Assembly: GCA_008080595.1 (NCBI GenBank)
Contig: VIKI01000049.1
Coordinates: 1 to 46,039, forward strand
Direction of reading: 5' to 3'
DNA: 46,039 nt
Origin: Comamonadaceae bacterium
GTDB taxonomy: Bacteria; Pseudomonadota; Gammaproteobacteria; Burkholderiales; Burkholderiaceae_C
Under the pieces are notes generated by a model. That model searched no databases. It saw only the letters and a list, made by a program, of their open reading frames with translations, and was not told where the DNA came from. This document shows, piece by piece, positions 14,139 through 44,089 of the stretch. Positions within the stretch are counted from its first letter, which is position 1; each line of letters opens with the position of its first letter. The position numbers and the translations under genes were made by a program.

Positions 14139-14924
14139 ATGAGTGACTACATTCTCCAGCTCGAAGACATCAGCAAATTTTTTGGCCCGGTGATCGCCCT
14201 GGGTGGCGTGACCCTGCGGCTGCGCCGTGGCGAAGTGCATTGCCTGCTGGGCGACAACGGTGCGGGCAAATCCACGCTGATCAAAACCCTGGCCGGGGTG
14301 CATGCGCCGGACAAAGGGCAATACCTGCTCGAAGGCAAGCCGGTGCGCTTCAGCTCGCCACGCCAGGCGCTGGACTTAGGCATTGGCACGGTTTACCAAG
14401 ACCTGGCCCTGGTGCCCTTGATGAGCGTGGCACGCAACTTCTTCATGGGGCGTGAACCGATCAAAAAACTGTTTGGCTTTTTGCCGGTGATGGATCACCA
14501 GCACGCCGCCGAAGTGGCGGGTGACAAGCTGCGCGACATGGGCATTCGCATTCGCGATGCGAACCAGATGATTGGCACCATGTCGGGCGGTGAAAAACAA
14601 TGCCTGGCGATTGCCCGGGCCATCCACTTCGGGGCCAAGGTGCTGATTCTGGACGAACCCACGGCGGCGCTGGGGGTCAAACAATCGGCCAATGTGCTGC
14701 GACTGATTGCCAAGGCCCGCTCGCGTGGTATCTCGGTGATTTTCATCACCCACAATGTCAACCATGCCTACCCGATTGCCGACAGTTTCACCCTGCTCAA
14801 CCGGGGCAAATCCCTGGGCACTTACCTGAAAAAAGACGTGAGCAAAGATGAGGTGCTGGACATGATGGCTGGCGGCGAAGAAATGCAAAAACTCATGGCA
14901 GACCTGGACGGCATCACGATCTAA
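14139..14924 (+). CDS. Inositol ABC transporter, ATP-binding protein
   Basis: The 261-residue ATPase has Walker A GDNGAGKST near residues 37-45, the signature MSGGEKQCLAIARAI, Walker B VLILDEPTAAL and the H-loop FITHNVNHAYP. It energises the permease encoded 17 bases upstream. It carries one nucleotide-binding domain, whereas RbsA/MglA-type ATPases carry two (about 500 residues), so it should act as a homodimer like FrcA-type proteins. Its stop TAA overlaps the next start by one base (TAATG at 14922-14926), indicating coupling with the kinase gene. Confidence 0.92.
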   Translation: MSDYILQLEDISKFFGPVIALGGVTLRLRRGEVHCLLGDNGAGKSTLIKTLAGVHAPDKGQYLLEGKPVRFSSPRQALDLGIGTVYQDLALVPLMSVARNFFMGREPIKKLFGFLPVMDHQHAAEVAGDKLRDMGIRIRDANQMIGTMSGGEKQCLAIARAIHFGAKVLILDEPTAALGVKQSANVLRLIAKARSRGISVIFITHNVNHAYPIADSFTLLNRGKSLGTYLKKDVSKDEVLDMMAGGEEMQKLMADLDGITI

Positions 14925-16810
14925 TGAAAGCCCACATGACTACATTGAAATTCCCCTCCAATCGCCCCATTGACCTGGCCTGCCTGGGCCGCCTGGCGGT
15001 GGACTTGTATGCCCAGCAATTTGGCAGCCGCCTGGAAGATGCCCGCAGCATGGCCATGACCCTGGGCGGCAGCTCGGCCAACCTGGCCTTTGGCGTAGCG
15101 CGACTGGGGCTGAAAAGCGCCATGATCTCGCGTGTGGGCAACGAGCACATGGGCCGTTTCCTGACCGAGACATTGCAACAAGTTGGCTGCGACACCAGCC
15201 AGGTGCAGATCGACCCCGAGCGCCTGACCGCCCTGGTGCTGTTAGGCCTGAAAGACCGCGACACCTTTCCGTTGCTGTTTGTGCGCGAGAACTGCGCCGA
15301 CATGGCGGTGGAGGCCACGCAGATTGACGAGTCTTTCATCGCCCGCTGCCGCGCCCTGGCCATCACCGGCACGCACCTGTCCACCCCCGGCACCCGTGCG
15401 GCTTCCCAGCAAGCTTTGGCCTATGCAAAAACGCATGGCGTGGTGCGGGTGCTGGACATTGATTACCGCCCGGTGCTGTGGGGCCTGACCTCACGCGGCG
15501 CAGGAGAAAATCGCTACGTGGCCGATGCCCGCGTGACGGCCCAACTGCAAGAGCTGCTGCCCGAATTTGACCTGCTGGTGGGCACCGAAGAATTCATTGC
15601 CGGCGGTGTGGCCGGTGACCTGATGGCCTGCCTGCACGCGGTGCGTGCGGTAAGCAGCGCCACCCTGGTGGTGAAACGCGGGGCGCTGGGTTGCAGCGTG
15701 ATTGAAGGAGCGATACCTGCCACGATCAACGACGCGCCGCTGTTTGTCGGCGAACGGGTCGAGGTACTCAATGTGCTGGGCGCGGGTGATGCCTTTTTGT
15801 CCGGCCTGATGGCCAGCCTGTTGCAGGGCAAAGATTGGGTGCGGGCCACGCAAACGGCCAACGCCTGCGGGGCCATCGTGGTGTCACGCCACGCCTGCTC
15901 TGCCGCCATGCCGACACCGGCGGAGCTGGCCCACTGGTTTGGCGGCAGCCGCAACCCCAAGGTCGATGCCGACTTGCAACTGGCGCACCTGCACCGAGTC
16001 ACTGCGGCGCGGCCCGAATGGAACGAGCTGTGTGTGATGGCGTTTGACCACCGCAGCCAATTCTTTGACCTGTGCCGTGAGGCTAGGGCCAGCGAGTCAC
16101 GCATTCCGGCGCTGAAAAAACTGCTGGTCCAAGCCGCCGAACAGGTCGAGCAAAGCCACCAGTTGCAAGGCCACACCGGGGTGTTGATTGACGGCGGCGA
16201 CTACGGGGCCGATGCACTGGCCAGCGCCACCGGGCGCGGCTGGTGGGTCGGTCGCCCGGTGGAGCTGCCGGGCTCCCGCCCGTTGCGTTTTGACGGGACG
16301 CGCTCAATTGGCAGCGCCTTGATCCACTGGCCGACCGAGCAGGAGCAAAAAGTGCTGGAGCTGTGGGAAGCCACCCGCGAAAGCGGCAACGAGCTGCTGC
16401 TGGAAATCATCTGCCCACGTGGCCTGACCCCAGCGGGCACAGAAGATGCCGTGGTGCTGCGTGCCGTGAAACGCTTTTACAACCTGGGTGTCAAGCCCGA
16501 GTGGTGGAAGCTGGCCCCCATGCAGGCTCAAGGCTGGGCCGCATTGCAGGCCCTGGTGGCCGAGCGCGACCCGTACTGCCGGGGCGCGGTGATCCTGGGC
16601 CTGAACCAGCCCTTGCAGGTGCTGGCAGACAGCTTTGCCCAGGCATCAAACCCTATCGTCAAAGGCTTCATGGTCGGGCGCACGCTGTGGGCGGATGCCT
16701 CGCTGCGCTGGCTCAAACAAGAGATCGACGACGCAGCCTTCATCACCGAGGTGGCCCATAACTTTGCCAGCCTGGTCGAGGCCTGGCGCACGCGGAGAGC
16801 GACAACATGA
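14924..16810 (+). CDS. iolC: Bifunctional 5-dehydro-2-deoxygluconokinase / DKGP aldolase-like fusion
   Basis: This 628-residue fusion has an N-terminal PfkB kinase (about 1-335) with GRLAVDLYAQQ, the GGSSANLAFG sugar-binding motif and the catalytic GAGDAF loop near 286-291. It phosphorylates 5-dehydro-2-deoxygluconate. The C-terminal half (about 345-628; VMAFDHRSQFFDL, LLEIICPRG, VKPEWWKLAPM) is the DUF2090/IolJ-like domain thought to cleave the product to dihydroxyacetone phosphate and malonate semialdehyde. Such fusions are common in proteobacterial iol loci. Start at 14924 is coupled to the ATPase gene; a second ATG four codons on (14936) is possible. The last four bases overlap iolD. Confidence 0.92.
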   Translation: MKAHMTTLKFPSNRPIDLACLGRLAVDLYAQQFGSRLEDARSMAMTLGGSSANLAFGVARLGLKSAMISRVGNEHMGRFLTETLQQVGCDTSQVQIDPERLTALVLLGLKDRDTFPLLFVRENCADMAVEATQIDESFIARCRALAITGTHLSTPGTRAASQQALAYAKTHGVVRVLDIDYRPVLWGLTSRGAGENRYVADARVTAQLQELLPEFDLLVGTEEFIAGGVAGDLMACLHAVRAVSSATLVVKRGALGCSVIEGAIPATINDAPLFVGERVEVLNVLGAGDAFLSGLMASLLQGKDWVRATQTANACGAIVVSRHACSAAMPTPAELAHWFGGSRNPKVDADLQLAHLHRVTAARPEWNELCVMAFDHRSQFFDLCREARASESRIPALKKLLVQAAEQVEQSHQLQGHTGVLIDGGDYGADALASATGRGWWVGRPVELPGSRPLRFDGTRSIGSALIHWPTEQEQKVLELWEATRESGNELLLEIICPRGLTPAGTEDAVVLRAVKRFYNLGVKPEWWKLAPMQAQGWAALQALVAERDPYCRGAVILGLNQPLQVLADSFAQASNPIVKGFMVGRTLWADASLRWLKQEIDDAAFITEVAHNFASLVEAWRTRRATT

Positions 16811-18675
16811 AAACCCAAAAACTCACCATGACCCAGGCGCTGGTGCGCCACCTGGCCGCGCTGCGGGTGGAGATGAACGACGGCAGTGTGCAACCCTATT
16901 GCGCCGGTGTGTTCTCGATCTTTGGCCACGGCAATGTGGCTGGCCTGGGCGAAGCGCTGTGGGCCAACCGGGCCGCGCTGCCGACCCACCGCGCCCACAA
17001 CGAGCAAGCCATGGCCCATGCAGCCATAGCCTACAGCAAGGCGCAGTTTCGCCAGCGCATCATGACTGTGACCACCAGCATTGGCCCCGGGGCCACCAAC
17101 CTGGTGACCGCTGCCGCGCTGGCCCATGTGAACCGCCTGCCGGTGCTGCTGCTGCCGGGTGACACCTTCACCTCACGTGCGCCCGACCCGGTGCTGCAAC
17201 AGCTGGAGAGCTTTTCGCAAGGCGACCTGAGCGTCAACGATGCCTTCAGGCCTGTGACACGCTACTTTGACCGCATCACCGCGCCGGAACAAATCCTCAG
17301 CGCCTTGCCGCGTGCCGTTTCCATCATGACCGACCCGGCGAACTGTGGCCCGGTGTGCCTGGCCTTGCCGCAAGACGTGCAGACCCAGGCCTTTGACTGC
17401 CCGGAAGATTTTCTGCACCCGGGGCTGATCCACTTTCGCCGCCCGCCTGCGGATGCCTATGAGCTGGCCTGCGCCGCCGCCACGCTGCGCAGTGCCAAGC
17501 AGCCACTGATCGTGGCTGGCGGCGGCGTGTTGTACAGCCAGGCCTGGGAGGCCCTGCGGGCCTTTGCCGAGACCCACGGCATTCCGGTGGCCGAATCGCA
17601 GGCGGGCAAGAGCAGCCTGCCCTGGGATCACCCGCTGAACCTGGGCGCGGTCGGTGTCACCGGCTCACCCGCTGCCAACGCGCTGGCCGCAGAGGCCGAT
17701 GTGGTGCTGGCCGTAGGTACGCGCTTGCAAGACTTCACCACCGGTTCCCACAGCCTGTTCGCCAAGGCCCAGTTGCTGAGTCTGAACGTGCAGCCTGTCG
17801 ATGCCAGCAAGTGGCACAGCACCGCCTTGGTGGCCGATGCCCGCGTCGGTTTGGGGCAGCTCAGCGCTGCGCTGGCTAACTGGCGTGCCGAGGCCAGCTG
17901 GACAGCCCGTGCCCAAACCCAGGCCGCCACCTGGGTGAGCCGTGTCACTGAGTTGACCACCGCCGTGCCCAAAGACGTGCTGCCCTACGACGCAGAAGTC
18001 ATCGGTGCGGTGCGCGACTCGCTCAACGATGCCGGTGGCGACAGCGGCACACATGACGTGGCGGTATGCGCCGCAGGCACGCTGCCGGCCGAGTTACACA
18101 AGCTCTGGCGCGCTTCTTTGCCGGGCAACTACCATATGGAATACGGCTACTCCTGCATGGGCTACGAGATTGCCGGGGGCCTGGGCGTGAAGATGGCGCG
18201 ACCCGAGCAAGAAGTGATCGTCATGGTCGGCGACGGCTCCTACATGATGATGAATTCAGAGATTGCCACCTCGGTCATGCTGGGCCAAAAGCTCATCATC
18301 GTGGTGCTGGACAACCGGGGTTACGGCTGCATCCAGCGCCTGCAATTGGCCTCAGGCAGCCCACGCTTCAACAACCTGTTGGACGACTGCGTGCCCGAGG
18401 GTGGCAGCCGCTCCACCATTGACTTCGCCATGCACGCCCGCAGCCTGGGTGCCGATGCGGTGCATGTGAGCGACGTGGCTGAACTTAAAACCGCCATGGC
18501 CCGTGCCCGTGCGGCAACCGGCACGCAGGTGCTGGTGATTGACACCACCCACACCCGCACCACCGATGACGGCGGCTGCTGGTGGGAGGTGGCCATCCCA
18601 GAAGTGTCCGAGCGCAGCGAGGTGAACGCGGCCCATGCCCGCTACCTGGCGGCCAAACAAGATCAACGCCCTTAA
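16807..18675 (+). CDS. iolD: 3D-trihydroxycyclohexane-1,2-dione acylhydrolase (ThDP-dependent)
   Basis: This 622-residue enzyme opens the inositol ring by hydrolysing trihydroxycyclohexane-1,2-dione to 5-deoxyglucuronate. It has three ThDP-enzyme domains: the N-terminal Pyr domain with the catalytic Glu in THRAHNEQAMAHAA near 60-72, a central domain, and a PP domain with the ThDP motif that begins VGDGSYMMMNSEIATS near 473 and ends at the Asn of VVLDN. TTSIGPGATNLVTAAALAH is a typical IolD segment. Its ATG overlaps the iolC stop (ATGA at 16807-16810), so the two are translationally coupled. Confidence 0.95.
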   Translation: MKTQKLTMTQALVRHLAALRVEMNDGSVQPYCAGVFSIFGHGNVAGLGEALWANRAALPTHRAHNEQAMAHAAIAYSKAQFRQRIMTVTTSIGPGATNLVTAAALAHVNRLPVLLLPGDTFTSRAPDPVLQQLESFSQGDLSVNDAFRPVTRYFDRITAPEQILSALPRAVSIMTDPANCGPVCLALPQDVQTQAFDCPEDFLHPGLIHFRRPPADAYELACAAATLRSAKQPLIVAGGGVLYSQAWEALRAFAETHGIPVAESQAGKSSLPWDHPLNLGAVGVTGSPAANALAAEADVVLAVGTRLQDFTTGSHSLFAKAQLLSLNVQPVDASKWHSTALVADARVGLGQLSAALANWRAEASWTARAQTQAATWVSRVTELTTAVPKDVLPYDAEVIGAVRDSLNDAGGDSGTHDVAVCAAGTLPAELHKLWRASLPGNYHMEYGYSCMGYEIAGGLGVKMARPEQEVIVMVGDGSYMMMNSEIATSVMLGQKLIIVVLDNRGYGCIQRLQLASGSPRFNNLLDDCVPEGGSRSTIDFAMHARSLGADAVHVSDVAELKTAMARARAATGTQVLVIDTTHTRTTDDGGCWWEVAIPEVSERSEVNAAHARYLAAKQDQRP

Positions 18676-18700
18676 ACCCCTTCAAGAAAGAACTTTTGTC

Positions 18701-19627
18701 ATGACCTGGAACGTACAAATCGGCATCAATCCCCTGTCCTGGATGAACGACGACCTGCCCTCACTGGGCGGCGAAACCCCTCTGGAAACCGCCTTGAAAG
18801 AAGGCAAGGAAATTGGCTACGCCGGCTTTGAGCTGGGCAACAAATTCCCCAAAGACGGCCCCGGCCTGAAAGCCAAGCTGGACGAATTTGGCCTGGCCTG
18901 CGTGTCGGGCTGGTACTCGGGCTTTCTGGCCGAACTCGAGCTGGGTCAAACTAACGAGCAAGCCGTGGCAGCCGAGGTGGAACGCTGCAAGGCGCACATG
19001 AGCAAGCTGCAATACAACGGTGTCAAAGTGGTGGTGTACGGCGAATGCGCAGGCACGGTGCAAGGCCAGATCAACACCCCGGTGTCCAAGCGCCCGCACT
19101 TTGCCAGCGAGGCTTTGTGGCAGGCCTACGCCGAACGCCTGAACGCCTTTGGCGAACACCTGATCACCACCTACGGCATCCAACTGGCCTACCACCACCA
19201 CATGGGCGCGTATGTGGAATCCCCCGCCGATGTGGACAAGCTCATGGCGCTGACCGACCCTGCCAAAGTCTTCCTGCTGTTTGACACCGGCCACGCCTAC
19301 TTTGGCGGTGCGTCCGACCCGGTGGCCTTGCTGCAAAAACACGTTAAGCGCGTAGTGCATGTGCATTGCAAAGACGTGCGCAGTTCGGTGATCGCCCAGG
19401 CCCGCAACGACGGCTGGAGCTTTTTGAACGGTGTGATCAACGGCACCTTCACCGTGCCCGGCGACGGCAGCATTAACTACGCTGCCGCACTCAAGGTGCT
19501 TCGTGATGCAGGCTACGAGGGCTGGCTGGTGGTAGAAGCCGAGCAAGACCCCGCCGTGGCCCCGAGCTACCAATACGCCAAGAAGGGTTTTGACACCCTG
19601 AGCGCCCTGGTCAAGAGCCTGGGTTAA
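18701..19627 (+). CDS. iolE: 2-Keto-myo-inositol dehydratase (myo-inosose-2 dehydratase)
   Basis: The protein of 308 residues is a xylose-isomerase-like TIM barrel that removes water from 2-keto-myo-inositol to give the dione used by IolD. The family opening is clear (IGINPLSWMNDDLPSLGGETP), as are YHHHMGAYVE near 165-174, LLFDTGHAYFGG with metal-binding Asp/His near 190-200, and VHVHCKDVR. ATG 18701 has AAGAAAG upstream and lies 25 bases after iolD; the longer open frame overlaps iolD and is not used. iolB begins 5 bases after its stop. Confidence 0.93.
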   Translation: MTWNVQIGINPLSWMNDDLPSLGGETPLETALKEGKEIGYAGFELGNKFPKDGPGLKAKLDEFGLACVSGWYSGFLAELELGQTNEQAVAAEVERCKAHMSKLQYNGVKVVVYGECAGTVQGQINTPVSKRPHFASEALWQAYAERLNAFGEHLITTYGIQLAYHHHMGAYVESPADVDKLMALTDPAKVFLLFDTGHAYFGGASDPVALLQKHVKRVVHVHCKDVRSSVIAQARNDGWSFLNGVINGTFTVPGDGSINYAAALKVLRDAGYEGWLVVEAEQDPAVAPSYQYAKKGFDTLSALVKSLG

Positions 19628-35080: not shown

Positions 35081-38000
35081 CTAAAGCCCCATGGCCGATA
35101 ACAACGTGGACAGATCAATCGGTTTGAAGAGCACTTGCCAGCGGGAAGATTGCATCAGTGTCAATTGATCCGGTGAGGTGTTTCCGGTCAACACTACAGC
35201 CTTGATGGGCACGCCTGAGCTAGCCTGAAGCGCTTCAAGCAACGCAAGGCCATTGATGCCGGGCAGCCGATAGTCGGAAATGTAGTGGTCTACCGCCATG
35301 GTTTGCGGGCAAGCCAGCGCCTCTTCAGCTGATCGGAAGAGTGTGACCTGGGCCCCCGCCATTTCCAGTGACAACTTGAGCGCCTCGGCCGCCGTTGCAT
35401 CATCTTCCACCACCACCAGCCGCAAGCCGGCAAGGCGTGTCCCGACAACGGTTTTCTGGGGCATGGAGGTCGCCCGTACCGGGACTTGCGGATCCGATGA
35501 CATGTTCAGCGGCACACTGAGTTCAAAGACGGAACCCTGGCCTTCCTGGGAACGAACACTCAGCCCGATGCCCAGCAGCTGACTGAGCCGCTTGACGATG
35601 GTGAGCCCCAAGCCCACACCTTTGGCGCGATCGCGTTGCGGGTTGGCAACCTGAAAGTATTCCTCGAAGATCGAGTCTATCTGACCGGGGGCAATACCAA
35701 TGCCGGTGTCCCACACCTGAATCAGTGCGCGATTTTCCCGCTTCCGGATACCTACCAGAACGCCCCCGCTCTCCGTGTATTTCACGGCGTTGCTGATGAG
35801 GTTGCGCAACACGGTCAGCAGCAAACTGCCATCACTGAACAGCACCAGGCCTTGGCGCGGGCAAAAGAGATCAAGGTGCAGGTCTTTCTCTTGGGCCAGC
35901 GCATCAAACTCGGCCCCCATCATCCTGAGCAAGCGCCTGGCCTGGATCGCCTCGGGATGCGGCTGGATGATGCCGGCATCGAGCCGGGATAAATCAAGCA
36001 AACCGTTGAGCAGTTCGCCCAGGGATTTCACCGACTTGGAGATATTGCGGCTGATGCGCCTTTGCTCCTCGTCGAGTTTCGTCATGCTCAAGGCCTGGTT
36101 GAACAGCCCGATGGCCTGCAGCGGTTGCCGCAGGTCGTGGCTGGCTGCGGCGAGGAAGTGCGACTTGGCCCGCGTCGCGGTCTCCGCCGCCTCCTTGGCG
36201 CTGGAGAGGGCCTGCGTGCGCTCCTCGACCAGCTGTTCCAGGTGATTCCGGTACCGCTCCAGTTCGGCTTCATTGCGCTTGCGCTCGGTGATGTCGTGAC
36301 CGATGGATATCGCACCAATGATTTGCCTGTCCGGTGCCCGCTCGGCCGCAATGATGCACAGGCCAGTGCGGATGCTCCCGTCCGATGATGGCAGCTGGAT
36401 TTCGAACTCGCTACGCTCACCCGTGGCAAGTGTGTGCGCCAATGCGCACTGATAGCTTTGCGGCATTTGCATGCTGGTGGGGTTGGTTTCCTGTAGCGTT
36501 TTGCCGATCAGTTGTTCAGCCGTGGTGGCAAACATCCGTTTCAGCGCAGGATTGACATAGGTGCGCCGACCTTGGCTGTCATAGCGAATCAGGCTGTCCG
36601 GCAAGTTCTCCGCCAGGGTTCGGAATTCCTGCTCACGCGCCTGCAGGTTGCGGTACATCAACAAGCTGGTCAGGGCATCGGAGAGTCGCCAGCCGATTTT
36701 CTCAAACAACTCTTCTTCATCACGTGTCCAGCTCCTCGAATGGTCACACTGCTGAATGCCAAACTGCCAGGGCTTGTCCAGCTTGGGGGACAAGGCCATC
36801 GACAGCAAAGACCTGACCCCGTATTGCGTCACTAAATTCGACGGTATCGCTCGTTCGGCGCCTGGCCCGAACTTCACGACGCCTTTTGCATCGAGCAGGG
36901 TACGCAAGATTCCCGCAACATCCTCGTCCATGGGCACAGCCCCCATTCCCGAAGCAAGTTGCCCAGGGTATTCTGATCGAGTACGTTCCATCGGTACCCG
37001 CCATTCGGGCGCAGTCGGATCACATGGGTACAGAAGAAACGCCCGGTCGCAGTCAAAAAAGGTGAGCACTACACCGAGCACGTTGCGCATCATCTGCTCG
37101 GGGTTGGTGGCTGCCAGGATGGCTATGTTGACGCTGTCCATACATTCAAGCGAATGCTCGTAGGCTTGGCGCGCCTGCTCCGCCCGCTTGCGCTCGGTAA
37201 TGTCTTCCAGCATGGCCAGCACGTAGTCGACCGAGCGGTCGGCCTGGCGAGCGCAGCCAACCACCAGGTCGGTGAACACGATGCCACCATCCTTGCGCAC
37301 AAAGCGTTTTTCAAGCGCGTAGTTGTCAATTTCGCCACCCAGCATGCGCTCAAACAAAGTCAAATCTGTCGCCAGATCCTGCGGGAAGGTCATTTGTGCC
37401 CAAGTCAGCTGCGTCAATTCCTCTCGGCTATAACCCAGCATCTGGCAAATCTTGTCATTAACCTGGAGCCAGCCCTTTTGCGGCGACGTGATGGCCATAC
37501 CGACCAGCGTACTCTCGAAGAACAAGCGCATGCGTTCTTCGCTGGCGCGTAACGCCGCCTCCACCTGCTTGCGCTCGGTGATGTCGAGCATGATGCCGTG
37601 CCAGACTACGCTGCCATCAGCCTGCTTGTCCGGTACGGAACGCACATCCAGCCAACGCACCGGCAAGCCGGGGCGGCAGACCCGCGACTCGATGCGAAAC
37701 GGGGTCATGGTTCGCCCGGATTCGGCAACGGCAGCCTCGATGCGCAATCGGTCTTCGGGCGGGGCCAGCATGTGGATCGGCATCATGTCGTCCATCACGT
37801 CTCGTGGCTGCAGGCCGTATAACTCCTCAATGCCTGGACTGACGTAGGGAAAACGGGCCTGCCCACCGGACACCTGGAAGGTATAGGCCATTCCTGGCAG
37901 ATTCTCAATAAAGTGCTTGAGCTTGAGCTCGGCCTCGCGGATGGCAGTGATATCCCGGCCAAAGGCAATGGAGCCGATGATGTGCCCATTCACGTCGCGC

Positions 38001-39140
38001 TCAGGCACGATGAAAATCTGGCGATAACTGGGCGCTGCGGGTTCGTGGTGCTCAATGAATTCGATGTCCACCTGGCTAGAGCCCCAACGGTTTCAGCAAT
38101 CTGTCGTTGAAGTAGCGATGGCGGCCTTGGCGGTCATAACGAACAATAAAATCGGGGGAAGTTTCAGCCAGGCTGCGAAACTCCTGCTCCCGCGCGGCAA
38201 TGTCCTGCTCCATTCGCTTGCGCTCAATGGCAATACTCACCAGATGCGTCGATTTTTCGATGATCGAAATATCAAAGGCCGCAGGCGAGTAGACCTCTCG
38301 GTGGTAGACCGCAAAAGTACCCAACACTTGACCACTGGATGAGCGGATGGGCTCTGACCAGCATGCCGCCAAGCCGGCCTTGGCGGCGAGTTCTTTGTAA
38401 GGTATCCAATAGGGGTGCGTCTGAATGTCATCAACAATCACGCGCTCTCCGGTTGCGGCCGCCGTCCCGCAGCAGCCACAACCAACACCGATTTCTATGC
38501 CATCGATGGCCGCGTTGTAAAAATCCGGCAGGCTGGGAGCGATGCACTGACCGAGATGTTGGCCATCACTCTCCGACAGCAAAATGCTGCAAATCATCTC
38601 CGGCTTGAGCTGCTCCACACCTCGCACTATCGATGCGAGAAGGTCGGGCAAGGATACGCCGCCAGCCAGCAGCTCCAGCGTCTGGCTGCGAAATTGTTCA
38701 TACCGCTCGGTCAGCCTTTGCTGGGTAATGTCACAAAAGGTCTGGACCACCGCATACGGCGCAGATTCCCCGTCCGGGATCAGCGGCAGCGTATTGACGG
38801 ATAACCAGACCAGCACACCATCGGGCCGATACACCCCCATCAGCACATTGCGTTGCGGCTTGCCGGTTTGAAAAGCAAGCATGGCAGGATGGTGTTCCCA
38901 GGGTATTGGGGTTCCACCCTGATGGATGAAGTTGAGTGTGGAATCAGAACCTGCAGAACCCGCGCAAGAGTGGCCAAGCCAGTGTGTGGCATCAAACCCA
39001 AGAATCAATTCTGCAGCAGGATTGATGGCGATGATTTCACCACTGCCATTGTGCAGAATAGCCCCATCTTCCATGGCCATGAAAAACGCCCGGAACAGGG
39101 GTTCGCTGGCGCGAGAGGTGTGTGGTGAGTGATAAAACAT
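35081..39140 (-). pseudogene. Multi-PAS/GAF hybrid sensor histidine kinase, split by a one-base frameshift
   Basis: Two frames join into one gene of about 1350 codons. The first (39140-38076) has PAS, a GAF domain (GVGCGCCGTAAATGERVIVDD, later CWSEPI) and the start of another PAS, ending FNDRLLKPLGL-stop. The second (from 38071) continues that PAS, then PAS, PAS, GAF, PAS, a HisKA box with the phosphorylated His (AAASHDLRQPLQAIGLF), HATPase (NAVKYTESGGV, DTGIGIAPGQ) and a C-terminal REC domain with acceptor Asp in DHYISDYRLPGING. One extra G in GGGG near 38083-38086 explains the break; without it the text reads KPLGSSQVDIEF. No membrane segments, so it is cytoplasmic. AGGAGG precedes ATG 39140. 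It follows the NosP-like and GGDEF genes as the last gene of that operon. If the break is real, the kinase half might still be made from GTG 38071. Confidence 0.85.
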
Positions 39141-39191
39141 GGGCCCCTCCTGAATGGATCAAGTCTATCCGCACCGATTGAGCCTATTGAT

Positions 39192-40367
39192 CTACGCTGG
39201 CCGCTGCACGCCCAAACTTGTCACGCAAAAAACAGGGGAACTGCCATGAACCCGATTGCGGCCAGCCGCCTTGGCCGCATACAGCGCATGGTCGGCGGCG
39301 GCGATCAGCTCGTCACCGGTGTGGCCATCATCCGGGAAGCTTGCTACGCCAAATGAGGCCGTCACCACAATGGAGTATGCCCCACTGGTTATGGGCGCAG
39401 CAGCCAATGCCGTGCGCAACTGTTCAGCCCGCTCAAGTGCGCTGTTCTGTGTTGTTTGCGCCAGCACCAATAGAAACTCTTCACCACCATAGCGGCAATA
39501 GACATCGCTGCCGCGCGCATGGCGTTTCAGCAAGGCACCAAAGGCCCGCAAAACATCGTCCCCAGCCAGGTGGCCGTAACGATCATTGATCGCCTTGAAG
39601 TGGTCGAGATCACTCATGATCACACTGATCGGATAGCCGTGCCGCTGGGCGGAAACAAGTTCCTGACCCAAGGTTTCCTCAAGGTAACGGCGGTTGTACA
39701 GGCCGGTCAGTACATCATGTGTCGACTGTTCCCGCAGCATTTCCTGCAAGGCTTTCACTTCGCGTTCGGCGCGGGTGCGCTGCGTGACATCCATCAACAA
39801 GCCGATCAGAGCCGGTTTGCTGTCAATTTCCATGGTGCTGCGGTGCACCTCCACATGGATCACCTCGCCGTTTTTGCGCAAACCGCGAAATACATCGCCA
39901 GTCTTTGCGGTCTCGCCGCTGATCTGTTTTTGGATACTCTCGGCAACCCTTGGCCGATCAGCTTCAAGGACCAGATCAAGCACGCCCAGTCCACGAACTT
40001 CTTCGGCGCTGTAGCCGAATATTTCATTGAACTTGGCATTGGCGTAACTGAACCTGCCCTCTTCAATGATGACGATGCCCACCAGGGACTGACTCACCAG
40101 ACTGTGAAATTTCAGCTCGGACTCGCGCAGGGCCTGGGTGATTTTTTCGTTCTCAGACAAGGCTGCTTCCAACTCCCTGGTTCGGATGCCCACCTGATCT
40201 TCCAACATCACGGTCATCTGGAACCGGCTGAAATCGGTGCCTTGGGCATCCGTGCTGCGCTCAGCACGATCCATCAATGCCCGGATGATTTTGTTGAGCC
40301 GAGCAATTTCAGCATTCAGTGCAGACACATCCTGTGGTGTCGCTTGCACCCCGGCATCAGGCATCAT
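39192..40367 (-). CDS. PAS-GGDEF diguanylate cyclase
   Basis: The 391-residue cytoplasmic protein has an N-terminal coiled coil (about 10-80), a PAS domain (about 85-205; SLVGIVIIEEGRFSYANAKF, then DVFRGLRKNGEVIHVEVHR) and a GGDEF domain with active motif GGEEF preceded by an RxxD inhibitory site (RGSD). It should make c-di-GMP. ATG 40367 or 40364 starts inside the end of the FIST gene (overlap of 8-11 bases), so its synthesis is coupled to that of the FIST sensor; the longer frame to 40445 is not needed. The PAS domain or the partner FIST protein would supply the signal. The kinase gene begins 51 bases downstream. Confidence 0.9.
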   Translation of the reverse strand: MMPDAGVQATPQDVSALNAEIARLNKIIRALMDRAERSTDAQGTDFSRFQMTVMLEDQVGIRTRELEAALSENEKITQALRESELKFHSLVSQSLVGIVIIEEGRFSYANAKFNEIFGYSAEEVRGLGVLDLVLEADRPRVAESIQKQISGETAKTGDVFRGLRKNGEVIHVEVHRSTMEIDSKPALIGLLMDVTQRTRAEREVKALQEMLREQSTHDVLTGLYNRRYLEETLGQELVSAQRHGYPISVIMSDLDHFKAINDRYGHLAGDDVLRAFGALLKRHARGSDVYCRYGGEEFLLVLAQTTQNSALERAEQLRTALAAAPITSGAYSIVVTASFGVASFPDDGHTGDELIAAADHALYAAKAAGRNRVHGSSPVFCVTSLGVQRPA

Positions 40368-41541
40368 CCGCCCCGGTGGTTGCGGCACCAATCGCAATGC
40401 CGACCAGCGTCTGGTTGACATGCACGCCATGAAACTGCTCCCCATAGGTGTTAAAGCCTATGGTGTTGTTGCGACAAAATACGGCATTGATATCCTCGAC
40501 AAGCGCCTTCTGGGTCGCCTCCAGTTTGCGCAGAATGCAGTCACAGGCGATCACCAGTTGAGGTGGGCCAATTTCCGCAACGATCTGGGAAAAATTGTTT
40601 TCCAGGTTCGCCAGCAGATCCACGCCTTTGGCCACGCGCAACACCAGCCCTTCTTCAATGGCACAGAAAAAGGTCAGACTACCATCTGGATTGGCTTGCT
40701 GGATGGCGCGCACGTAATTTCCCCCATCAATCATCACCACCACAGGCCAAGCCGCAAAGTGGGCTGGCGTGAGCTCGCCCACATCAACGCCCAGAATCCG
40801 TGCGTACTCCTGCGCCGCAGGAAGTCCATTGATTTCCTTCACGTTGCGATGGACCCAATCCACCTCGGTGACCACCATCCGTTCTTCCGTCACAACAAAA
40901 TGCTGGGTCTTGAACAATCTGAATGGCAATGGTGTTGAAACCAGAATCAAGGCGGCACTGTCGGTTTCAAAGCTGCCATCCAAATACACATGGGTACGGC
41001 CATACCTTGTTCCGTCGCCCGCTGAACCACCTACAAGGGGGAGTCCACCCAAGGTGCGCTGGAAAGTGCGCGTGACCGGCTCCTCACGCACGGACAGGCC
41101 ATCAATCAGCAGCAAGGCAAAACTGTTTTCGGCATTCGCCTGTGGCACCTGACTTTCCAGCCGTTGTAGCAGTTCCTGGGTAAATAGCTGGCCTGCGGAT
41201 GCCTCAAATTGCTGCAAGTGACCCATGCGCCCGCTGACGGCAGCAAAACAGCTGGCCGAAAAACTTGCACCAGTCAGGCTGTGAACCAGGCAACCGGCAG
41301 GGCCGATTTCCCCAGCTGTCGTGCAACCCACGACCTGAACCCCGCCAAACAAACGCTTCAATTCTTCGGCAAGCTGCGTCAGGTCATAGACACTGGAGCA
41401 GAAAAAAATGACCAGTGCAGTTTCAGGCTGTGCCACTGCGGCGTGAAACTCTTGTACAGCTTCGCGTGCGTCCGTTTTGCAGGACTGCGCTGTGCGTATG
41501 CCGGGGCGGTGTTCCACGATGATGCCTTGCCTCTCCACCAC
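40357..41541 (-). CDS. FIST-domain sensor, NosP-like (putative nitric-oxide sensor)
   Basis: This 394-residue protein has FIST N and C domains: IRTAQSCKTDAREAVQEF, then LVIFFCSSVYDLTQLAEEL and VVGCTTAGEIGPAG at the N half, and GEQFHGVHVNQTLVGIAIGA at the C terminus. NosP proteins are FIST-domain haem proteins that bind NO and control a neighbouring histidine kinase or c-di-GMP enzyme; the arrangement here (PAS-GGDEF plus hybrid kinase in the same operon) matches that. NosP rather than a generic FIST protein is my inference from motifs and context. The start is uncertain: GTG 41541 or GTG 41517, the latter with a GGAGAGGCAAGG sequence before it. Confidence 0.85.
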   Translation of the reverse strand: MVERQGIIVEHRPGIRTAQSCKTDAREAVQEFHAAVAQPETALVIFFCSSVYDLTQLAEELKRLFGGVQVVGCTTAGEIGPAGCLVHSLTGASFSASCFAAVSGRMGHLQQFEASAGQLFTQELLQRLESQVPQANAENSFALLLIDGLSVREEPVTRTFQRTLGGLPLVGGSAGDGTRYGRTHVYLDGSFETDSAALILVSTPLPFRLFKTQHFVVTEERMVVTEVDWVHRNVKEINGLPAAQEYARILGVDVGELTPAHFAAWPVVVMIDGGNYVRAIQQANPDGSLTFFCAIEEGLVLRVAKGVDLLANLENNFSQIVAEIGPPQLVIACDCILRKLEATQKALVEDINAVFCRNNTIGFNTYGEQFHGVHVNQTLVGIAIGAATTGADDA

Positions 41542-41640: not shown

Positions 41641-42795
41641 TCACTGTGGGTAAGTCCCCGGCAACAAAATCCGCTTGTCCACCGTATCGATTTGGGTATG
41701 GCCGCAAAACGCCATGGTCAGGTCGAGCTCTTTGTGGATGATTTCCAGTGCCTTGGTCACGCCGGCTTCCCCCATGGCCCCCAGGCCGTACAAAAAGGCG
41801 CGGCCAATGTAAGTGCCACGGGCACCCAGGGCGCGGGCCTTGAGCACGTCTTGCCCGCTACGGATGCCACCATCCATGTGCACCTCCATCTGACTCCCCA
41901 CCGCGTCCACGATGGCCGGCAGGGCCGAGATGGAGCTGGGTGCACCATCGAGCTGACGGCCACCGTGGTTGCTGACGATCAGTGCGTCGGCCCCCGAGTT
42001 GACGGCCAGGCGGGCGTCTTCCACGTCTTGAATGCCTTTGAGGATCAGCTTGCCGCCCCAGCGTTTTTTGATCCACTCCACATCGCCCCAATTGAGCGCC
42101 GGGTCAAACTGCTTGGCCGTCCATTCGCTCAGCGACCCCATGTTCTCGATGCCTTTGACGTGGCCAACGATGTTGCCAAAGCCGTGGCGCTTGGTGCCGA
42201 GCATGCCCAGACCCCAACGCACTTTGGTGGCCATGTTGATGATGTTGGCCAGGGTGGGTTTGGGCGGTGCGGACAGGCCATTTTTGAGATCGTTGTGGCG
42301 TTGGCCGATGATTTGTAAATCCAGCGTCAGCACCAGCGCCGAGCAATTGGCGGCTTTGGCGCGGTCGATCAGGCGCTCAATGTAATCCCGGTCTTTCATC
42401 ACATACAGCTGAAACCAGAACGGGTGACCGCCGGTTTCCTGCGCCACGTCTTCAATCGAGCAAATGCTCATGGTAGAGAGCGTGAACGGTATGCCGAATT
42501 TCTTGGCCGCATTGGCGGCCTTGATTTCACCGTCGGCACACTGCATGCCAGTCAGCCCGGTGGGGGCAATCGCCACCGGCATGGCCACTTTCTGGCCAAT
42601 CATAGTGCTGGCGGTGCTGCGGTTTTCCATGTTGATGGCCACCCGCTGGCGCAGTTTGATCTTCTGAAAATCTTCGCTGTTGGCCCGGTAGGTGGATTCG
42701 GTCCAGCTGCCAGAGTCAGCATACTGGTAGAACATGCGGGGGACGCGTTTTTCGGCGAGGATGCGCAGGTCTTCGATGTGGGTGATCACAGGCAT
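41641..42795 (-). CDS. lldD: FMN-dependent alpha-hydroxy acid dehydrogenase (L-lactate dehydrogenase type)
   Basis: The 384-residue protein is of the LldD/glycolate-oxidase family and oxidises an L-2-hydroxy acid, passing electrons to the quinone pool or another acceptor. Visible are VAIAPTGLTGMQCADGE at the FMN site, FQLYVMKDRDY, the Lys region LILKGIQDVEDA and the catalytic block SNHGGRQLDGAPSS with the active His and Arg near 280-290, plus DGGIRSGQDVLKA. ATG 42795 has AAGGAA upstream; the open frame further 5' is non-coding. It is divergent from the FAD oxidoreductase remnant at 42972. Lactate is the most likely substrate, mandelate or glycolate are alternatives. Confidence 0.9.
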   Translation of the reverse strand: MPVITHIEDLRILAEKRVPRMFYQYADSGSWTESTYRANSEDFQKIKLRQRVAINMENRSTASTMIGQKVAMPVAIAPTGLTGMQCADGEIKAANAAKKFGIPFTLSTMSICSIEDVAQETGGHPFWFQLYVMKDRDYIERLIDRAKAANCSALVLTLDLQIIGQRHNDLKNGLSAPPKPTLANIINMATKVRWGLGMLGTKRHGFGNIVGHVKGIENMGSLSEWTAKQFDPALNWGDVEWIKKRWGGKLILKGIQDVEDARLAVNSGADALIVSNHGGRQLDGAPSSISALPAIVDAVGSQMEVHMDGGIRSGQDVLKARALGARGTYIGRAFLYGLGAMGEAGVTKALEIIHKELDLTMAFCGHTQIDTVDKRILLPGTYPQ

Positions 42796-42971
42796 GGCAA
42801 GGTTCCTTTCAAGCTGCAGCATGTTACGGCGACCGCGTTGAAGTTGGTTTGAAAAGACGAGGTTGCTGCATGAAAAAATTGATGCTTGAGTCCGGGTGTT
42901 GCCCAAGCCGTCCGGAATAATGCCCCCAAGGTCGCCGATGAGGTTCGGCTCTGTTTTTTGAAAGTTGATCC

Positions 42972-44089
42972 ATGCAAACAGCCGATGTTCTGATTGTGGG
43001 TGCGGGTATGGCGGGTGCGTCAGCCGCTTATTTTTTGGCAGCCCACCGCAAAGTGGTGCTGCTTGAGCGTGAGGCACAGCCCGGCTACCACGCCACGGGC
43101 CGCTCGGCCGCCATGTATTGCGAAACCTATGGCAATGTGGTGGTGCGGGCCATCACCACTGCGTCCAAGTCGTTTTACGTCAACCCGCCGACAGGTTTTT
43201 CAGATGTCCCGCTGCTCACACCACGCGGTGCGCTGATTGTTGGCGCGGAAGCTGACCATGCGTCCTTGTGTCAAACCCTGGAAGCCATGCGCACCCTGGT
43301 GCCCAACATGCAATGGTGGACCCAGGCCGAGATCTTGCAGCGTGTGCCGGTGTTGCGGCCTGAATGCGCCAGGTATGGTGTGTATGAGCCCGATGCCATG
43401 GACATGGATGTGCACAACATTCACCTGGGTTTTTTGAAAGGAGCCAGAGCGGCTGGGGCGCAACTGGTGTGTGATGCCGGTGTGCATCAGATTGGCTTTG
43501 AGGCCGGGCAGTGGTGTGTGAACACACCCGTCGGGCGGTTTTGCGCCCCCGTGCTGATCAATGCGGCGGGGGCCTGGTGTGATGAGGTGGCCGCGCTGGC
43601 CGGTGGAAACGCCGCACCGCCTTTACTTGTGACCCACCTGAAGGTGTAGACATCCGTGAATGGCCGCTGGTGATGGATGCACAAGAGTCGTTTTACTTCA
43701 AACCCGACGCAGGTGTGCTGCTGGTATCCCCTGCCAATGAAGACCCCATGAGTCCACAAGACGTGCAGCCCGAGGAGCTGGATGTGGCGCTGGCGGTCGA
43801 CCGGCTTGAGCACACCACCACCTTGCAGATTCGCCGGGTGCGGCGCAAATGGGCGGGTTTACGCTCGTTTGTGCACGACCGAACACCGGTCGTGGGGTTT
43901 GCCCCCGATGCCCCCGGTTTTTTCTGGTTGGCTGGTCAGGGTGGCTATGGCATTCAGACCGCACCCGCTATGGGTGAACTCACCGCAGCGCTGGTGCGTG
44001 GCCTGGATGTGCCCGCACACATGGTGGCGCTGGGCTTGCGTGCACAAGACGTGTCGCCACAGCGGAGCACCCTCGATTCAACTCTTTGA
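42972..44089 (+). pseudogene. FAD-dependent oxidoreductase (DAO family) gene with small internal deletion
   Basis: The N-terminal part has the FAD-binding GAGMAGASAAYFLAAH motif and GYHATGRSAAMYCE, ending at 43649 just after INAAGAWCDEVAALAGG. The C-terminal part continues in another frame from about 43610 (RRTAFTCDPPEGVDIREW) to RRVRRKWAGLRSFVHDRTP and GQGGYGIQTAPAMGEL. In relatives about ten residues (GVAP-like stretch) lie between these blocks, so a short deletion of some 20-25 bases that is not a multiple of 3 is likely near 43606. Intact, it would be about 380 residues, related to glycine/D-amino-acid oxidases. Divergent from lldD. Confidence 0.8.

Follow-up and report, generated by a model that had tools for sequence, protein, structure and literature searches.

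A NosP-like gene coupled to a PAS-GGDEF cyclase gene whose product carries a candidate NosP-coupling segment

Genes at the locus

We analyzed a 46,039-nucleotide (nt) stretch of DNA, called the window below, from a Comamonadaceae bacterium (assembly GCA_008080595.1, contig VIKI01000049.1, positions 1 to 46,039). On its minus strand, a nosP-like gene encoding a FIST protein is followed by the gene of a PAS-GGDEF diguanylate cyclase, which carries a two-helix segment near its N-terminus, and then by a hybrid histidine kinase gene whose reading frame is broken (Table 1). The first of these genes is an ordinary NosP, the second encodes a less studied kind of partner, and the third is a false lead. 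We regard it as probable that the locus encodes a switch made of two proteins, NosP and the cyclase, in which the segment serves as the docking module and the kinase is not a target of NosP.

Table 1. Features of the locus, with positions in the window (aa, amino acids; ORF, open reading frame; HMM, hidden Markov model).
Feature	Position	Strand	Evidence
nosP-like gene, 394 aa, GTG start	40357..41541	-	Pfam FIST and FIST_C; NCBIfam NosP
PAS-GGDEF diguanylate cyclase gene, 391 aa from ATG 40367	39192..40367	-	GGDEF 171.8 bits, PAS (Pfam)
Two-helix NosP-partner segment (about 70 aa) near the N-terminus of the cyclase	40122..40331	-	segment HMM, E 8.7e-30
Kinase fragment 1, 354 aa: PAS, GAF, start of PAS3; ends at TAG	38076..39140	-	ORF; Pfam; start of PAS3 by paralogue alignment
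Kinase fragment 2, 996 aa, other frame	35081..38071	-	ORF; Pfam; frame break against paralogues on contigs C229 and C301
L-lactate-dehydrogenase-type gene, dependent on flavin mononucleotide	41641..43077	-	Pfam FMN_dh; NCBIfam PRK11197, 418.5 bits (cut-off 376)

The FIST ORF matched the NCBIfam NosP model NF041558 over the whole profile (1-368 of 368) with 453.1 bits, a narrow pass over the cut-off of 450. Its alignment with many homologues begins only at about residue 9-15 from the GTG start. Residues C73, C335, Y366, and H374 showed no variation across 49 alignment rows, and from its sequence the protein is expected to bind haem and nitric oxide (NO). The haem-ligating residue of NosP was not found in those parts of the literature that were searched, which included portions of PMC6769237 and PMC12889525. 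A sequence search for a relative of NosP with a solved structure returned no convincing match, the one hit having an E value of 0.73; the FIST domain of FBXO22 (8s7d, 8ua3) differs in that it belongs to a eukaryotic F-box protein and is 14% identical.

The longest ORF of the cyclase gene begins at 40445 (417 aa); the likely starts are the ATG codons at 40367 and 40364, both inside the FIST gene, which give overlaps of 11 and 8 nt, respectively. The overlap of 8-11 bases that a first-pass annotation of this DNA had proposed as coupling the two genes is thus borne out. The GGDEF domain is full (Pfam positions 2-161 of 161), the GGEEF motif is intact, and an RxxD site (RGSD) lies five residues ahead of it. 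By motif and full-domain test the product is a diguanylate cyclase, with catalysis predicted. It is 52-70% identical to 15 other cyclases encoded next to NosP, and 33-37% identical to two more.

The N-terminal segment of NosP partners

When the cyclase was used as the query in tblastn, genes with differing outputs located behind NosP shared with it only residues ~35-110 (numbered in the 417-aa ORF). We collected 87 NosP loci, comprising the best 80 of at least 580 FIST relatives, six further stretches, and the window; the 80 were picked by likeness to the window, and partner counts among these loci are therefore not frequencies. An HMM of the segment, run over the 12,582 ORFs of these loci, matched 85 of them, once each and in the gene behind NosP. 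The weakest of the 85 matches had an E value of 2e-12, and the best other ORF had 0.0027. This HMM was grown on the same loci, so that the genome surveys described below are the fairer test. We use the term NosP partner for a segment-bearing gene behind nosP; the group is defined here and is not a published family.

In the predicted model of the cyclase, helices span residues 11-38 and 45-92, and the second leads straight into the PAS domain. Among the 18 cyclases of alignment A2, the mean pairwise identity is 63% for the segment, 60% for GGDEF, and 45% for PAS; with the two most distant cyclases omitted, the values are 67%, 66%, and 51%, respectively. Neither Pfam nor NCBIfam has a model for the segment as such: Pfam gave no useful match to it, and the only NCBIfam match was to the N-terminus of the NahK model (model positions 7-80, E 3.4e-6). 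We found no description of the segment in the NosP literature searched, which covers the primary NosP papers only in part, so that a prior description is possible.

Distribution of the segment across genomes

For a first survey, 398 genomes of the phylum were searched both with a 30-row alignment of the segment (A1) and with the NosP model. Each of the 67 segment matches lay on the same strand as a NosP match and 32-204 nt behind it, and none was found elsewhere; the window's genome contributed two of the 67, both of them rows of A1, and in the window itself the distance is 58 nt. Seen from the side of NosP, the segment was present behind 67 of 86 NosP matches, including all 27 that exceeded the model cut-off and 64 of the 65 with at least 330 bits. 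For one NosP without a match (416.8 bits), the partner has a degenerate segment, seen at E 1e-4 (L158). The second survey covered 300 genomes of the order and gave 13 segment matches, 12 of them 44-99 nt behind NosP. The first survey shares three of the 13 matches, and A1 includes five of the 13 as rows (the window, L019, L023 in G056, L024 in G040, and L025 in G608). In these surveys the top 15 (398 genomes) or 20 (300 genomes) first-look candidates per genome were scored and matches at E <=1e-5 retained; weak orphan segments could therefore be missed.

The NosP-to-GGDEF coupling put forward in the first-pass annotation is upheld by these data, since the pair recurs across many genera and the cyclase bears the segment found behind NosP in every match of the first survey. 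Of the 86 other loci, 15 hold the same pair, with 51-72% identity along the cyclase, and at every one of these the longest cyclase ORF reaches back into nosP; the pair was found in Sulfuriferula, Competibacteraceae, Rhodoferax, Nevskiaceae, Ciceribacter, Methylomonas, and Legionella other than L. pneumophila.

Partner outputs, a gene fusion, and the NosP phylogeny

The partners in the 87 loci comprise 61 kinases, 20 proteins with a GGDEF domain, two PucR-type proteins, and two that are unknown or cut; the remaining two loci lack the segment. Among the 20 GGDEF partners, one carries a full EAL domain (L035) and another part of an EAL domain (L056). The PucR-type partners consist of GGDEF_2 and HTH_30 domains, and both come from Actinomycetota metagenome assemblies (L036:10001-12722 and L042:10001-12677), where NosP lies beside a protein with the segment, a GGDEF-like domain, and a PucR helix-turn-helix. 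Such a partner is possibly an NO-responsive regulator of transcription. In one genome (G073; L157:1500-5102), NosP and the segment are fused in-frame within a single open frame of 1201 aa, in the order FIST (37-405), segment (432-499), PAS, HisKA (827-890), HATPase (939-1049), and REC.

We reconstructed a tree of the NosP sequences by a quick method; it has long branches, and 22 of its 84 forks remain open. On this tree, the cyclase and kinase states require at least four changes, and kinases from Pseudomonas and Zoogloea nest among the cyclase pairs with supports of 81-93. The NosP in a record named Mycobacterium sp. KBS0706 (L078) groups with sequences from Inquilinus limosus, and the name or the assembly of that record may be wrong.

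We lean, with less assurance than for the switch itself, toward regarding the segment as a dedicated and so far undescribed NosP-coupling domain, one plug to kinases, cyclases, cyclase-phosphodiesterases, and a PucR-type regulator, whose outputs were exchanged in evolution. The segment might instead be a signalling helix that was inherited with the operon, with NosP contacting its partners elsewhere. The segment is indeed predicted to form helices and, in the cyclase, to run on into PAS, homologous neighbours stay linked through descent, and strong support exists for few output swaps only. However, no copy outside NosP operons appeared among the scored matches in the 398 genomes, the segment is kept before proteins as different as kinases, cyclases, GGDEF-EAL enzymes, and PucR-type proteins, and it is more conserved than the PAS domain that it feeds. 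We judge the signalling-helix explanation improbable.

The third gene and the question of a trio

The kinase gene begins 51 nt after the cyclase gene, at ATG 39140, with a strong Shine-Dalgarno sequence (AGGAGG) in front, which agrees with the 51-base gap given in the first-pass annotation. The single kinase with ten PAS/GAF modules that the same annotation described does not hold up: the frame breaks inside PAS3, and ten modules are obtained only when reading across the break. Fragment 2 contains the rest of PAS3, two PAS domains, a weak GAF that scores below the Pfam cut-off, another PAS, HisKA, HATPase, and REC, and a GTG start codon lies 4 nt past the TAG that ends fragment 1. A multi-PAS frame of 2292 aa on contig C229 of the same genome spans the tail of fragment 1 and the head of fragment 2 in-frame, with 36 residues between; two frames on C301 align likewise over the break, with 36 and 39 residues between the fragment matches. 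Relative to these paralogues, and by a recount from the alignment ends, the window lacks about 36-39 residues of PAS3 and its frame is shifted. The GC content by codon position stays coding-like up to the break in both fragments, so that the break is either recent or an assembly error.

The best reading of this gene is that of a separate multi-PAS hybrid kinase, degenerate or misassembled in this assembly, that neighbours the NosP-cyclase pair and is not a target of NosP. We put at somewhat under even the possibility that the assembly introduced the break into a gene that is in reality intact, though still unrelated to NosP; it is compatible with our preferred explanation of the locus. The genome is in 322 contigs and 89% complete, and it has several multi-PAS genes whose modules are 46-66% like those of this kinase, repeats of a kind that mislead assemblers; both fragments also look coding. 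Against this, we found no positive sign of error. The recurring modules occur in three open frames of 1882-2292 aa in the window's genome (L117, L118, and L119), of which L118 is packed with PAS modules according to Pfam.

The first-pass annotation had also described a NahK-like SHDLRQPLQ box in the kinase. The box is present; the NahK label is weak, at 294-297 bits on the NahK/ErcS C-terminal model, which has a cut-off of 400. Fragment 2 failed against both NCBIfam NF041832 (294 bits, cut-off 400) and NF041831 (270.7 bits, cut-off 1500), although the frame break depresses a score on a whole-length model. Six other kinases of the genome, none of them at either of its two NosP loci, score 322-368 on the C-terminal model; such a kinase core thus does not point to NosP. 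Membership of the kinase in the NahK family was rejected on these grounds. The cyclase passes the test for the partner segment, and both kinase fragments fail it, with no segment seen by the HMM in either of them at E 10 or better.

Conservation of the trio was assessed in the 19 other loci where NosP is followed by a gene with a GGDEF domain. A same-strand ORF with a kinase domain was found within 6 kb downstream in none of the 19; the sequence available downstream was 6.2-8.9 kb, and 3.1 kb in one locus (L058). Near the pair in L060 there is a kinase-domain ORF, but it lies on the opposite strand. The trio was therefore rejected as a conserved unit, an outcome that the first-pass annotation had itself named as speaking against its proposal when it suggested the comparison with other genomes.

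That proposal was a branched pathway, with the cyclase and the hybrid kinase both under the control of NosP; the kinase would then be made as one working protein or as two through a stop and restart. The kinase gene does follow on the same strand after a short gap with a strong Shine-Dalgarno sequence, the GTG codon just past the TAG offers a restart, and both fragments are coding-like up to a break that is recent or artificial. However, the kinase lacks the partner segment, the other NosP-GGDEF pairs have no such neighbour, and the genome has six kinases away from NosP that fit the NahK C-terminal model better. In 60 relatives, moreover, the kinase matches listed are 28-48% identical and nearly all in the C-terminal half. 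We consider the branched pathway highly unlikely, more so than any other alternative raised here. The window's genome has a second NosP, 60% identical to the first, on contig C250 with its own segment-bearing kinase of 372 aa, so that this organism may signal from NosP through a cyclase as well as a kinase, though from two separate loci.

Proposed mechanism

In the mechanism we favor, NosP would be made together with the PAS-GGDEF cyclase and would dock on the two-helix segment at its N-terminus. Ligand binding to NosP would alter the packing of the segment; since the second helix runs into PAS, the change would pass to the GGDEF dimer and set the synthesis of cyclic di-GMP (c-di-GMP) without a phosphorelay. 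In other lineages the segment would act as a general module for coupling to NosP, placed before histidine kinases, GGDEF-EAL enzymes, and PucR-type regulators. Docking through the segment is what we infer from the sequence comparisons, and an inhibition of the cyclase by NO would be in line with the pairs of H-NOX and cyclase.

Several observations weigh against this reading. Shared descent of the partner N-terminus together with gene linkage could yield the same pattern without docking, and the strongly supported branches of the NosP tree alone force only one change (cyclase label) or two (kinase label). The strong ribosome site before the kinase, so close behind the cyclase gene, makes co-transcription of the kinase likely. 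By HMM, two of the 87 loci have no segment (L085 and L093), and in the second survey one orphan segment, at a contig end, lies behind a gene other than NosP (G665). In the first survey, 19 of the 86 NosP-family matches lack the segment, 16 of them in one family (f57) at no more than 323 bits. Four members of f57 (L159-L162) are without the segment and have HATPase proteins encoded behind them, in open frames of 706-869 aa, so that NosP-like proteins can work without it; this clade possibly uses a different coupling.

Comparison with known systems

As in NosP-NahK, NosP-VpsS, and NosP-NosK-NosR (Pseudomonas aeruginosa, Legionella pneumophila, Vibrio cholerae, and Burkholderia pseudomallei), the NosP of the window is encoded beside a signalling partner, and the NCBIfam model of NahK, a known partner, matches the segment at its N-terminus. 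In the NahK, VpsS, and NosK systems, according to the parts of the sources consulted, the partner is a histidine kinase that reaches c-di-GMP or quorum sensing via phosphotransfer (PMC12570481, PMC8846402, PMC6769237), whereas in the window the partner is itself a cyclase. The consulted parts of two papers describe the NosP kinases as lacking any sensory domain that could be recognised: in NosK, about 130 residues at the N-terminus are unassigned (PMC12570481), and a sensory domain is missing from VpsS (PMC6769237). By analogy, the segment could explain this gap in NosK and VpsS.

In V. cholerae CdpA, FIST-FIST_C is fused to a c-di-GMP phosphodiesterase that haem inhibits, as the part consulted states (PMC8846402). 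The two systems are alike in that a haem-linked FIST module, with haem predicted for the window NosP, acts on a c-di-GMP enzyme without a kinase. Unlike CdpA, which is one polypeptide and a phosphodiesterase, the window has two genes and a cyclase; the likeness is by description only. Direct control of a c-di-GMP enzyme by FIST is thus not new in principle. H-NOX proteins act on a cyclase or a cyclase-phosphodiesterase in L. pneumophila (Hnox1-Lpg1057) and Shewanella woodyi, where NO inhibits, again from a source seen in part (PMC8846402). The window resembles these pairs in that a predicted haem NO sensor would act directly on a GGDEF enzyme, and differs from them in that the sensor domain is FIST, not HNOB. 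No action of NosP on a separate cyclase is described in the literature searched, in which the primary NosP papers are only partly covered.

A short segment that occurs almost exclusively behind NosP genes makes the docking of NosP on its partners testable by deletion. It would also allow the true partner at a NosP locus to be told from the sequence by itself, and it suggests that NO could control c-di-GMP, and perhaps transcription, with no phosphorelay in between. If it is truly a coupling domain, there would be a direct route from NosP to a cyclase without phosphotransfer, and the sensory-domain gap of the NosP kinases would be filled.

Neighbouring genes

The L-lactate-dehydrogenase-type gene precedes nosP in the same orientation at a distance of 99 nt and may share a transcript with it. 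On the plus strand, positions 14139-19627 of the window encode, by Pfam, an ABC ATPase, a PfkB-DUF2090 protein, a thiamine-diphosphate enzyme, and a xylose-isomerase-like protein, a cluster that resembles one for inositol breakdown.
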